This document shows positions 12,353-43,067 of a stretch of 64,000 nucleotides of DNA, piece after piece. The notes under the pieces were generated by a model. That model searched no databases. It saw only the letters and a list, made by a program, of their open reading frames with translations, and was not told the DNA's origin. The DNA comes from Pedobacter sp. FW305-3-2-15-E-R2A2 (lineage in GTDB: Bacteria; Bacteroidota; Bacteroidia; Sphingobacteriales; Sphingobacteriaceae), in the NCBI RefSeq assembly GCF_038446955.1, contig NZ_CP151803.1:248001-312000 (forward strand). Direction: 5' to 3'. Positions within the stretch are counted from its first letter, which is position 1; each line of letters starts with the position of its first letter. A program made the position numbers and the translations under genes.

Positions 12353-12360
12353 TAACTTTG
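12353..12360 (+). promoter_or_regulatory. -7 element of lpd
   Basis: TAACTTTG matches TAnnTTTG exactly and ends 22 bp before the ATG. No convincing -33 TTTG at the usual spacing was found. Confidence 0.5.
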
Positions 12361-12382
12361 TGCAACAAAAAAAATCCTTTAT

Positions 12383-13789
12383 ATGCAATACGATGTAGTT
12401 GTTATTGGCTCGGGCCCGGGCGGTTATGTTGGAGCAATCAGATGTGCCCAACTTGGCTTAAAAACGGCAGTGATAGAAAAATATAAAACTTTTGGTGGAA
12501 CCTGCTTAAATGTAGGTTGTATCCCTTCAAAAGCATTGTTAGACTCTTCAGAGCATTTTCACAATGCGGCACATACTTTCCAGACTCATGGGATCAACCT
12601 TAAAGATCTGAAAGTGGATATGCCACAGATGATTGCACGTAAGGATGATGTGGTGACACAGAATACGGTTGGAATCCAATATCTTTTCAAAAAGAATAAA
12701 ATTGATTCTTTCCAGGGAGTCGGATCTTTCGTAGACAAGAATACGATCAAAATCACCAAAGAAGATGGAACTACGGAAACGATCACTGCAAAAAATGTGA
12801 TCATTGCTTCGGGTTCTAAACCGACTGCTTTACCATTTTTACCGATCGATAAAAAGAGAATCATTACCTCTACAGAAGCTTTAAATATTAAAGAGGTTCC
12901 TAAAGAAATGGTCGTAATTGGCGGTGGTGTAATTGGCCTGGAATTGGGATCAGTTTACGCACGTCTGGGCACTAAAGTATCGGTGGTTGAATTTATGCCA
13001 TCTATCATTGGAACCATGGATGCGGGCTTAGGAAAAGAACTTCAACGGGTGTTGAAAAAATCTTTAGGCATGGAGTTTTACATGGGACATAAAGTGACCG
13101 GTGCTACTGCTAAAGGTAAAAGAGTAACGGTAACCGCAGACAATGCAAAAGGTGAGCAGGTAAAACTGGAAGCAGATTATTGCATTGTAGCAGTGGGTCG
13201 TACGGCTTATACTGCTGGTTTAGGTTTAGAAAACATTGGGATTACAACGGAAGAACGTGGTAACAAGATTCCGGTAAATGAGCATTTAGAAACTGCTGTT
13301 CCGGGTGTATATGCAATTGGTGATGTCATTAAAGGAGCCATGCTTGCGCATAAAGCGGAAGATGAAGGTGTTTATGTGGCAGAAACTATTGCAGGTCAAA
13401 AACCACACATCAATTATAACCTGATTCCTGGTGTAGTATATACCTGGCCTGAGGTGGCCTCTGTAGGTTATACAGAAGAACAACTGAAAGAAAAAGGTAC
13501 AGCTTATAAAGCAGGGTCATTTCCTTTCAAAGCAAGCGGACGCGCGAAGGCAAGTATGGATACCGATGGTTTTGTAAAAGTATTGGCTGATGCTAAAACT
13601 GATGAAATTTTAGGTGTTCACATGATTGGTCCGCGTGCAGCAGATATGATTGCTGAAGCGGTTGTTGCGATGGAATTCCGTGCTTCGGCAGAGGATATCG
13701 CAAGGATTTGCCATGCACACCCAACCTATACAGAAGCACTTAAAGAAGCGGCAATGGCGGCGACTGAAAATAGAGCAATACACATGTAA
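12383..13789 (+). CDS. lpdA: Dihydrolipoyl dehydrogenase (E3)
   Basis: The 468-residue flavoprotein reoxidises the dihydrolipoyl groups of 2-oxo acid dehydrogenases (and glycine cleavage H protein) with NAD. The FAD-binding GSGPGGYVGAI is at residues 9-19, the redox-active pair sits in GGTCLNVGCIPSKALL near residue 40, the NAD-binding GGGVIGLELGS near 180, and the dimer-interface active-site His-Glu in HAHPTYTEALKEA near 446. Length and motif order are normal. It stands alone under its own promoter, 4.5 kb from sucAB, which fits use by several complexes, including the glycine cleavage system whose P protein is encoded at 54514-57393. Confidence 0.96.
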   Translation: MQYDVVVIGSGPGGYVGAIRCAQLGLKTAVIEKYKTFGGTCLNVGCIPSKALLDSSEHFHNAAHTFQTHGINLKDLKVDMPQMIARKDDVVTQNTVGIQYLFKKNKIDSFQGVGSFVDKNTIKITKEDGTTETITAKNVIIASGSKPTALPFLPIDKKRIITSTEALNIKEVPKEMVVIGGGVIGLELGSVYARLGTKVSVVEFMPSIIGTMDAGLGKELQRVLKKSLGMEFYMGHKVTGATAKGKRVTVTADNAKGEQVKLEADYCIVAVGRTAYTAGLGLENIGITTEERGNKIPVNEHLETAVPGVYAIGDVIKGAMLAHKAEDEGVYVAETIAGQKPHINYNLIPGVVYTWPEVASVGYTEEQLKEKGTAYKAGSFPFKASGRAKASMDTDGFVKVLADAKTDEILGVHMIGPRAADMIAEAVVAMEFRASAEDIARICHAHPTYTEALKEAAMAATENRAIHM

Positions 13790-23080: not shown

Positions 23081-23611
23081 ATGACAAAAAATGAATTCAA
23101 CCTCCAGTTAAATGACCATTCGGTTTCTTTGCAGTCATTCGCTTTAAATTTTACGAAAGACATTGAGGATGCAAACGACTTAGTTCAGGATACCATGTTA
23201 AAAGCGGTAACTTACTACAGTAAGTTTAAAGAAGGTACAAACCTTAAAGGATGGTTATTTACCATCATGAAAAACACCTTCATTAACAACTACAGACGTT
23301 TGGTGAAAACCAATGCATTAATTACCAAATCAGACGATATTTCTTCTGCCAATCTGCACTATAGTGCTGCAAAAAACACGAGCGACAGTAAGTTTATTAT
23401 AGGCGATATCAATAAAGCGCTTGCCACGCTTCAGCCGGAATATTATATTCCTTTCATCAAATATTTTGAAGGATATAAATATCATGAGATTGCTGAAATG
23501 TTAGAAATTCCAATAGGTACGGTAAAGACGAGAATCCACGTTGCCCGCCAGATTCTTAAAAAATATCTGAAAACCTATTCTAAAGAAATTTTGGGTGCAG
23601 AGGTTGTTTAG
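23081..23611 (+). CDS. RNA polymerase sigma factor, ECF type
   Basis: The 176-residue protein has sigma-70 region 2 (residues 18-85: DIEDANDLVQDTMLKAV, then NLKGWLFTIMKNTFINNYR) and region 4 (about 110-165: YHEIAEMLEIPIGTVKTRIH, an HTH). There is no anti-sigma gene next to it. In related Bacteroidetes a small sigma factor of this kind commonly precedes carotenoid genes (recalled, not searched); here the next gene is a lycopene cyclase, but a strong terminator lies between. It probably acts in a light or stress response (inference). The start ATG follows a long A-rich leader. Confidence 0.92.
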   Translation: MTKNEFNLQLNDHSVSLQSFALNFTKDIEDANDLVQDTMLKAVTYYSKFKEGTNLKGWLFTIMKNTFINNYRRLVKTNALITKSDDISSANLHYSAAKNTSDSKFIIGDINKALATLQPEYYIPFIKYFEGYKYHEIAEMLEIPIGTVKTRIHVARQILKKYLKTYSKEILGAEVV

Positions 23612-23628
23612 TCCTCCCCATGGTATTT

Positions 23629-23665
23629 AAAAGCGCTTTAACCTGGATGTTAAAGCGCTTTTTTT
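23629..23665 (+). terminator. Terminator of the ECF sigma gene
   Basis: Stem AAAAGCGCTTTAAC / GTTAAAGCGCTTTT with loop CTGGAT and a following T run. It separates the sigma gene from the lycopene cyclase gene. Confidence 0.9.
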
Positions 23666-23731
23666 ATGGCATAAAAAATTCATTGGTAAACGCCGTCAAA
23701 ATCATATTTTTGGGCTTAACTAATTAAATAA

Positions 23732-24403
23732 ATGAATTTTACTTATCTGTTGCTGGCACTTGGCATCCTGGTTATCCCGATGGTTCTGCTATCTGTTAAA
23801 AAAACAAGTTTTAACCAAAGCATAAAGTTTGCCATTCCAGCGGTGCTGATTACCGGAATTGCCTTTTCGATATTTGCAACAGTACTGGTGATGGTGGGTG
23901 CCTGGAGTTTTCAACCTGCTTACCTGACTGGTGTATCATTATGGAAAATTCCTGTAGAAGAATTTTTGTTTTCTATGGTCATTTCTCTGGCAGGAATTGG
24001 CATCTATGTTACCTTAAATGCGTTCTTCCCCAGCAATGCTTTAGATAAGTTTAGCCTTTCTTTTAGCAATCTGCTGATGGGGATTTGTGTTGCCATGCTG
24101 ATCTTTACTTATACCAAATGGTACAGTGCAATTTCATTTGGAGTACTGTTTGTCCTGATTTTTTACATTGAATACCTCAATAAACTGCGCTTCACCTATA
24201 AGTTTTACCGGGGATTTCTAGCAGTGTTGGTCCTTTTTTATATTGCTTATGGCGTTATTTCGACGTTGCCTGTGATTTCTTATACAGAGGTGATGAATTT
24301 AAAACTCGGTGCCATTCCTTTTGAAAGCCATTTTTACTTTATGGGAATGCTTTTGATGAGTGTTTACTTATTCGAGCTATTTAAAAGCAAGGCTAGAGCA
24401 TAA
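23732..24403 (+). CDS. Lycopene cyclase, CrtYcd type (membrane protein)
   Basis: The 223-residue protein is almost entirely membrane helices (about seven). Two similar halves are visible: the first ends with LWKIPVEEFLFSM (near residue 72) and the second carries LGAIPFESHFYFMG (near 190), each with the conserved acidic residue of the CarR/CrtYc-CrtYd domains. The family closes the ends of lycopene to beta-ionone rings. Gene length fits the fused two-domain form. The stop codon overlaps the next start (TAATG), so it is coupled to the cytochrome b5-like gene. No phytoene synthase or desaturase gene is present in the window. Confidence 0.85.
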   Translation: MNFTYLLLALGILVIPMVLLSVKKTSFNQSIKFAIPAVLITGIAFSIFATVLVMVGAWSFQPAYLTGVSLWKIPVEEFLFSMVISLAGIGIYVTLNAFFPSNALDKFSLSFSNLLMGICVAMLIFTYTKWYSAISFGVLFVLIFYIEYLNKLRFTYKFYRGFLAVLVLFYIAYGVISTLPVISYTEVMNLKLGAIPFESHFYFMGMLLMSVYLFELFKSKARA

Positions 24404-24639
24404 TGGATCTGCCGATTTATACCAAACAACAGCTGGCGCTTCGGAATGGGCAGGATAAGCCGCAGATCTGGGTTGCCTATCGTGGGATAATTTATGACGT
24501 TACAGAAAGTCGCCTATGGCGGAATGGTAAACATTATGAACACTGGGCAGGACAAGACCTTACTGAGGAGCTGCCTGACGCACCGCATACGGAAAATGTT
24601 TTTGAGAAGTTTATAGCGATAGGAAAGCTATTTAGTTAG
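24403..24639 (+). CDS. Cytochrome b5-like heme/steroid-binding domain protein
   Basis: This 78-residue single-domain protein resembles the cytochrome b5-like (membrane-associated progesterone receptor) domain: IYDVTESRLWRNGKHYEHWAGQDLTEEL, quoted here in parts (IYDVTESRLWRNG, HWAGQDLTEEL, DAPHTENVFEKF), gives the heme-pocket segments. It lacks a membrane segment or signal peptide and probably stays in the cytoplasm. It overlaps the lycopene cyclase stop by one base (TAATG), so it is translated with that gene; a role in electron supply to a carotenoid-modifying enzyme is possible but only inferred from position. Confidence 0.85.
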   Translation: MDLPIYTKQQLALRNGQDKPQIWVAYRGIIYDVTESRLWRNGKHYEHWAGQDLTEELPDAPHTENVFEKFIAIGKLFS

Positions 24640-42266: not shown

Positions 42267-42890
42267 CTAGTTGGAATGAAAATAATTTGAGGAAACGATG
42301 ATGAATCCGATAATGCCGCCATTCTTACGCACATATTCGCGGACGAATTTGCTGGCCTCTACCATATGATTTTTTACCGTATTCTTAGAGATCTCCAGTT
42401 TTGATGCAATTTCCTCATGGCTGAGCTCTTCTGTACGGCTCATCTGATAGATCAGTTTCTTCTGTGCCGGAAGCAGTGCGATCGCATCCAGGTAGATTTT
42501 TCTGAGTTCCTTTTCCAGGAGCTGATCTTCGGTACGGTTGGCACTGATCTCCACCTGTTGAAAGACTTCTTCTTGCAAGGATTTGTCGCGGGCTACCTTC
42601 TTGAGGTGGTTTAAGACATGGTTGATCGTGATCTTTTTGATATAAGCATTAAAGGAAAGGTCTGTATTGATCTGAATCCTTTTCTGCCAGATCCGAATAA
42701 ACACCTCCTGAACAATTTCTTCAGCCGTATCAGTTGATTTGCTGAGCTGATAGGCATAAGTATGTACTTTTTTGCGGTACTGATTGTATATTTTTACGAA
42801 CGCAAGCTCATCACCTTCTCTGAGTTTAATCAGTAGGTCCTTATCTTCGAGCTGTTCCGTTTGATGTACCTGCATTGTTATAATCGCCAA
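42267..42890 (-). CDS. ECF RNA polymerase sigma factor of a FecR/TonB system
   Basis: The 207-residue protein shows sigma region 2 (LAFVKIYNQYRKKVHTYAYQ, then AEEIVQEVFIRIWQKR near residue 57) and region 4 (LSHEEIASKLEISKNTVKNH near 156), the layout of the Bacteroidetes expansion family. It is followed by FecR and the STN-containing receptor on the same strand, so it is expected to drive expression of that locus. An ATG six codons inside (42872) is an alternative start. Confidence 0.95.
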   Translation of the reverse strand: MAIITMQVHQTEQLEDKDLLIKLREGDELAFVKIYNQYRKKVHTYAYQLSKSTDTAEEIVQEVFIRIWQKRIQINTDLSFNAYIKKITINHVLNHLKKVARDKSLQEEVFQQVEISANRTEDQLLEKELRKIYLDAIALLPAQKKLIYQMSRTEELSHEEIASKLEISKNTVKNHMVEASKFVREYVRKNGGIIGFIIVSSNYFHSN

Positions 42891-43067
42891 TGTTAAATAA
42901 ATTTTTCAAGAAAAGGAGGTATAACTTAGGATTCGGACATTCAGCTTATAAAGGCCTTCTGTTTGACAAGCCTTGAAACTAATTGTTACATAAAGACGAT
43001 CATGGTTTGGTTAGAGAAATAGAGTTGTTATTCGTCTTCGTTTCTAAGGAGATAAGATAAATAAACC

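Follow-up and report, generated by a model that had tools for sequence, protein, structure and literature searches.

What is a lycopene cyclase gene doing beside a gene for a small cytochrome b5-like protein and behind an ECF sigma factor gene, when no other gene of carotenoid synthesis surrounds it? This arrangement is found in Pedobacter sp. FW305-3-2-15-E-R2A2, in a stretch of 64,000 nucleotides (the window) that corresponds to bases 248001-312000 of the single 7.59-Mb contig of the genome. By cyclase identity, the closest named relatives are Pedobacter sp. KBW06 (92%), P. steynii DSM 19110 (90%) and P. caeni (80%). Below, loci with cyclase and b5 genes that have no crtI, no crtB and no hyp, a small unnamed gene, are called stripped.

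Gene content of the locus

The open reading frames and coordinates that a first-pass annotation of the window had given for the three genes (Table 1) were reproduced exactly, and its naming of each gene agreed with profile searches. The sigma factor upstream of the cyclase is of the ECF type, with Sigma70_r2 and r4_2 over the Pfam cut-off and hence regions 2 and 4 without region 3; its neighbors in the window are murB and the cyclase gene, neither of which is an anti-sigma gene. The cyclase has the two-domain CrtYcd form. Pfam Lycopene_cyc matches two separate parts of it at 84.4 bits (cut-off 27), and NCBIfam names it a "lycopene cyclase domain-containing protein" at 48 bits (cut-off 39.4). 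The b5-like protein scores 38.9 bits for Pfam Cyt-b5 (cut-off 23.7) and has no NCBIfam match. In the TAATG overlap described earlier, the TAA stop codon of the cyclase (24401-24403) and the ATG of the b5 gene (24403-24405) have one A in common. The reported absence of crt genes also held, with no profile match to crtB, crtZ, idi or hyp167 in the window (E 1e-3) and a single, weak crtI-profile match at 12356-13786 (E=2.4e-4). A second, weak sigma-profile match is located in the window at 42270-42905 on the minus strand (E 2.6e-5).

Table 1 Features of the cyclase-b5 locus (positions in the window)
Feature	Position	Strand	Remarks
ECF sigma factor gene	23081..23611	+	176 aa; member of ancestral locus; ORF and Pfam
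Terminator-like hairpin, 3' of sigma	23629..23665	+	Folding energy
Promoter-like element TTG-N19-TATTTTTG	23683..23712	+	Upstream of cyclase
CrtYcd-family (PF18916) membrane protein gene	23732..24403	+	223 aa; probable ex-lycopene cyclase
Domain-1 motif PVEE (cyclase residues 74-77)	23951..23962	+	Intact in window protein
Pedobacter-specific conserved segment EYLNKLRFTYKFYR (cyclase residues 147-160)	24170..24211	+	Alignment
Domain-2 motif PFES (cyclase residues 196-199)	24317..24328	+	PxED in unstripped-locus cyclases
Small cytochrome b5-like gene	24403..24639	+	78 aa; coupled to cyclase by TAATG

The hairpin in the gap between sigma and cyclase has a T run after its stem and a folding energy of -17.8 kcal/mol for 23620-23670 (z -5). 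A consensus terminator scan did not call it, we think because the stem consumes part of the T run. The promoter-like element was called with the Bacteroidota promoter consensus, and the sequence TA[TC]TTTTG before the cyclase recurs in 23 of 25 stripped relatives chosen from the 66 other stripped loci; the stretch sampled from each of the two exceptions (L148, L196) stops short, its start codon, picked mechanically, being farther upstream. As a hairpin separates them and the cyclase has a promoter-like element of its own, sigma and cyclase are probably separate transcription units. A partial palindrome, CAAAA-N6-TTTTG, overlaps this element in the window (23697-23712) and occurs in several relatives, and could be an operator.

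A distant crt operon with its own cyclase

The first-pass annotation had raised the possibility of an orphan cyclase in a split pathway. The genome has one CrtYcd match, that of the window, one phytoene synthase and one crtI over the cut-off, and its crtI and crtB lie in the same operon-like run at 3.30 Mb, 3 Mb from the window. This run consists of a MarR-like gene (under the Pfam cut-off), crtI, crtB, a 167-aa gene that neither Pfam nor NCBIfam matches, idi, crtZ and a FAD-type crtY. We named idi and crtZ from our own reading of the sequence, and this crtZ has no Pfam hit. The crtY product scores 194 bits against 23.4 for Pfam PF05834 and falls below the NCBIfam cut-offs. The window cyclase accordingly has no adjacent crtB or crtI, the only ones being 3 Mb away in the company of another cyclase. 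As this complete operon carries its own CrtY, an outcome that the first-pass annotation had itself named as refuting its view, a split pathway is rejected for the species.

A stripped remnant of a carotenoid locus

The other possibility, gene loss from the interval between sigma and cyclase, is upheld by relatives, which keep crtI, crtB and hyp precisely there. In a family sample of 151 genomes (CrtYcd match in 118, crtB match in 121), forty stretches, such as L055, L082 and L086, were used to read the ancestral order, which is murB, sigma, crtI on the opposite strand, crtB, hyp, cyclase and b5, with PfkB facing b5 and often with crtZ before murB; L203 also shows this order. The window locus is a stripped remnant of this carotenoid locus.

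The genus sample comprised 145 genomes, of which 139 have b5 (including 131 of the 132 good-quality ones) and 131 have crtB. One stretch was taken from each of the 138 other b5-bearing genomes, that of G135 representing the place of the cyclase, with b5 about 20 kb off. When states were assigned mechanically to these 138 loci, crtI-crtB-hyp-cyclase-b5 was found in 2, the same order without crtB in 54, partial variants with hyp in 2, cyclase-b5 without crtI, crtB and hyp in 68, and b5 only in 12. Of these 68, one (L103) has only a short, spurious hit on the opposite strand and another (L198) is truncated at the end of its contig. The stripped set comprises 67 loci, including the window, with cyclases of at least 150 residues; eight of the 67 are more diverged or in odd context, and loci showing neither murB nor sigma may have moved. 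On a FastTree tree built from 124 genus and 5 outgroup rows of murB, PfkB and sigma proteins, the stripped and b5-only loci account for 71 rows, of which 67 fall in one supported clade and four, on long branches, lie outside it. The stripped loci thus form nearly one clade, so stripping and the loss of Asp described below were one or a few ancient events and the 67 loci are not independent.

Three features of the crt clusters are recorded here in their own right. There is no crtB between crtI and hyp in L047, L048, L050 and about 50 further unstripped Pedobacter loci, the crtB match being elsewhere in the genome. Both kinds of crt cluster contain a protein of ~170 residues with a signal-peptide-like start, judged by eye (L009:8635-9138, L080:6447-7001); the two that were scanned have no Pfam or NCBIfam match, which suggests an unnamed carotenoid-linked family. 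In several relatives (L060:6327-6857, L082:3498-4028) a divergently oriented SRPBCC-type gene (PF10604 in L060) separates sigma from the cyclase or from crtI.

Loss of the domain-2 aspartate

The domain-1 motif PxEE and the domain-2 motif PxED are kept in every one of the 79 cyclases aligned outside the stripped set, of which 58 come from unstripped Pedobacter loci and 21 from elsewhere (16 at b5-linked loci of other genera, 5 in alternative crt operons). None of the 67 stripped cyclases has the domain-2 Asp, which is replaced by S, N, T, A, G, V or Q in 66 and falls in a gap in one (L102). The Glu preceding this position is kept in 66 of the 67, and in domain 1 E76 is present in 59 and the second Glu in 34. 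The window protein retains PxEE in the form PVEE and departs from PxED with PFES. It keeps PVEE and passes the Pfam cut-off for lycopene cyclase, and Ser for Asp may alter activity rather than abolish it; all six stripped proteins scanned are over that cut-off. We infer that lycopene cyclization has probably been lost. No plasmid relatives of the window cyclase were found and no credible relatives by sequence in the PDB, and an AlphaFold model built from ten rows was too poor to use (pLDDT 45).

Residue E78 of CarRP would lie within the PxEE motif. A CarRP variant with E78K is reported to make lycopene, with beta-carotene undetectable (PMC8803881). CrtYcd has been reported in Bacteroidetes (Klassen 2010, PMC2889829), and the words "Pedobacter", "pseudogene" and "cytochrome b5" do not occur in that article's main text. 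No paper on a Pedobacter cyclase-b5 pair was found by title or start of abstract, in a search that covered subscription journals and preprints thinly.

A second cyclase in the same genome was considered as the cause of the Asp loss. Strong hits for FAD-type CrtY (E <1e-40, mostly with 12 candidates scored per genome) were found in at least 33 of the 145 genus genomes and, among the matches listed, in none of the 58 unstripped ones. Among 20 genus genomes of the family sample, nine that are stripped and bear crtB have a further cyclase apiece, four of them a CrtY and five a second CrtYcd, and the ten unstripped ones have no second CrtYcd and no strong CrtY hit. CrtY is also hit strongly, with E of 4e-39 or below, in 5 of 10 genomes of another genus (g21) and in G030, and the CrtYcd proteins aligned from four of these CrtY-bearing genomes (L067, L068, L073, L086) keep PxED. 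Redundancy is thereby weakened as the full cause, as a second cyclase alone does not explain the loss.

Persistence in genomes without the pathway

No crtB match was found in 14 of the 145 genus genomes, twelve of them of good quality and two (G159, G180) single-contig assemblies, and none of the 14 has crtI over the cut-off, for which an added control (G227) scores 414 bits. The cyclase open reading frame is kept in 12 of these genomes, including that of L102, which has no aligned domain-2 motif, and b5 is kept in all 14, two of which (G195, G250) have b5 only. P. steynii (G270) is one of the twelve that keep the cyclase, its lack of crt genes being less sure at 96% completeness. A sigma-profile match lies near b5 in 12 of the 14 loci (L122 in odd context) and is missing from L150 and from L090, the stretch of which starts at a contig end. 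On the FastTree tree, which includes 12 of these 14 crtB-less genomes and has many weak branches, at least 11 switches between presence and absence of crtB are needed. As cyclase and b5 persist in this way without detectable crtB or crtI, the donation of electrons to a carotenoid hydroxylase that was first suggested for b5 is ruled out as its sole role.

Selection on the stripped cyclase

Rates were compared as Nei-Gojobori dN/dS in pairs preselected on shared 12-mers with dS of 0.05-1.5, which overlap and are not independent. Stripped cyclases gave 0.033-0.219, with a median of 0.11 (67 close pairs), and unstripped cyclases a median of 0.074 (315 pairs). The stripped cyclase is under purifying selection, and pairs in which both genomes are without crtB gave 0.095 (G223-G071) and 0.13 (G197-G244). 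As the stripped values are somewhat above the unstripped ones and reach 0.217 in a close pair with one crtB-less member (G244-G172, L096-L094), selection may be partly relaxed. The b5 and sigma proteins change more slowly than the cyclase, with sigma dN/dS of 0 to 0.06, mostly <0.03, among the close pairs listed.

The 67 stripped proteins have a median pairwise identity of 43% and ten invariant residues, six of which (E147, Y148, R153, F154, Y159 and R160) lie in one segment, EY-x4-RF-x4-YR. Four of the six, E147, Y148, R153 and R160, occur without exception in stripped and unstripped Pedobacter proteins alike (67/67 and 58/58), and among 16 proteins of other genera E147 is present in 3, R153 in 2 and R160 in 0. 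With residues fixed in both groups and rare in other genera, the constraint on this segment would most simply have arisen within the genus ahead of the loss of the Asp, and have outlasted that residue. By the positive-inside rule, the four positive charges in the segment of the window protein suggest that this loop faces the cytoplasm, the side on which b5, having no evident signal peptide, would also be found. Linkage to b5 does not require the segment, which the b5-linked cyclases of other genera lack.

The b5 protein and its linkage to the cyclase

Cyclase and b5 frames overlap at 65 of 67 fetched stripped loci versus 10 of 57 unstripped loci, a count with mechanically chosen start codons that includes L198 and excludes the window. 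The b5 core has invariant H44, H47 and H62 in all 161 rows aligned (138/138 genus, 16/16 other-genus and 7/7 further rows), and these putative ligands would enable it to bind heme. The best PDB match to the window b5 is a bacterial b5, the closest solved relatives being 6nzx (E 1.1e-17) and 6vz6 (E 6.5e-16), and its match to PGRMC1 is weak (E 0.61). The b5 gene is not bound to the cyclase everywhere, as there is no cyclase hit at the b5-only loci (12/138 fetched genus loci), only the short opposite-strand hit at L103, and none within 1.5 kb of b5 in the seven genomes of a phylum sample whose flanks were read (L218-L224). In that sample b5 is present in 10 of 148 genomes and crtB in 145, a distribution too uneven for a usable test of co-occurrence. 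In other families (L218, L219, L220, L224) b5 is found near MurQ-like genes with no cyclase, and at most of these loci also near kinase-like or formimidoylglutamase-like genes, all named by eye.

Proposed role of the cyclase-b5 pair

Loss of neighbors and of the domain-2 Asp, purifying selection, linkage to b5 and persistence without detectable crtB or crtI are the observed properties of the stripped cyclase, which is probably reused for something else. With moderate confidence, we propose that a lycopene cyclase has here turned into a carotenoid-independent membrane protein that works with b5. The ancestral locus would have held sigma, divergent crtI, crtB, hyp, cyclase and b5, often with crtZ upstream of murB, and in one Pedobacter lineage crtI, crtB, hyp and crtZ would have gone from it, with a second crt operon and its own cyclase serving the pathway where a pathway exists. 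The old cyclase would have lost the acidic residue of its domain-2 PxED, and selection would keep it as a membrane protein whose role is independent of carotenoids and which is produced along with b5 through the overlapping frames. Given the coupling and the charged loop at 147-160, the most economical reading is that it anchors or partners b5 in the membrane through this loop, and we infer that the two proteins are in physical contact.

A fuller history is offered more tentatively, as one we find possible and somewhat short of probable. The second function, seated in the charged EY-x4-RF-x4-YR loop and involving b5, would have been gained at the base of Pedobacter while the protein was still catalytic; catalysis would have been lost later, once another crt operon, with a cyclase of its own, served the pathway, and the protein would survive as a cyclase-fold pseudoenzyme and membrane partner of b5 in dozens of species, including carotenoid-free ones.

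Purifying selection without carotenoids would also be expected of an enzyme that had moved to a new substrate, a non-carotenoid isoprenoid or a lipid, with b5 supplying electrons to a linked step, and the retention of the motif-2 Glu (66/67) and of E76 (59/67) indicates that part of the old active site persists. We nevertheless regard such an enzyme as unlikely, as in each of the old motifs the second acidic residue has either gone or varies, no further conserved enzyme lies between sigma and b5 in the stripped loci among the profiles searched, and there is no candidate substrate. It is more doubtful still that the window protein remains a cyclase of lycopene or another carotene, with altered specificity, forming rings on the product of the distant operon. 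Family, size, the intact PVEE and scores over the Pfam and NCBIfam cut-offs speak for an active cyclase, and split pathways with intact motifs do exist in a related genus (L072, L073), but the distant operon has its own CrtY, the domain-2 Asp is missing in 67 of 67, and the gene is kept in 12 genomes without detectable crtB or crtI, with selection evident in two pairs of such genomes. That the gene is a relic in slow decay, maintained solely because its translation overlaps that of b5, is disfavored as very improbable. The cyclase is gone from 12 loci, the tree has eight changes of label, of which starred branches force at least four, and the protein changes faster than b5 or sigma, but the dN/dS of 0.03-0.22 in close pairs, the frames still open at a median identity of 43% and the ten invariant residues all argue against decay, and a requirement for an upstream open reading frame would not preserve the amino acids of the cyclase.

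If a carotenoid-independent partner of b5 is indeed what the cyclase has become, these loci offer a natural series in which an enzyme passes from pathway member to pathway-free protein, with a second constraint visible before and after, and a handle on what small bacterial b5 proteins do. As family models name the stripped proteins lycopene cyclases, cyclic carotenoids would be wrongly predicted in species that have no pathway.

Comparison with known systems

The window protein belongs to the same family as the CrtYcd-type lycopene cyclases of Bacteroidota (PF18916, TIGR03462), being a two-domain membrane protein of similar length, and the ancestral form of its locus likewise holds crtI and crtB. 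It differs from them in having PFES for the domain-2 PxED, no crt neighbors, relatives that persist without detectable crtB or crtI, and a Pedobacter-specific invariant segment. The FAD-type CrtY of the same genome (PF05834) nominally performs the same reaction as the CrtYcd family but is of a different protein family and lies inside the crt operon at 3.30 Mb. The sigma factor resembles other ECF sigma factors in having regions 2 and 4 only, within 176 aa, and differs in having no adjoining anti-sigma gene. The bacterial b5 proteins 6nzx and 6vz6, which are presumably members of the MAPR-like class, share with the window b5 a chain of 78 residues and a common core with an APH motif. Bacterial b5 proteins of the MAPR-like kind are described in an earlier report (PMC10093951). 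Unlike 6nzx and 6vz6, the window b5 is encoded by a gene that overlaps that of a cyclase-family membrane protein.
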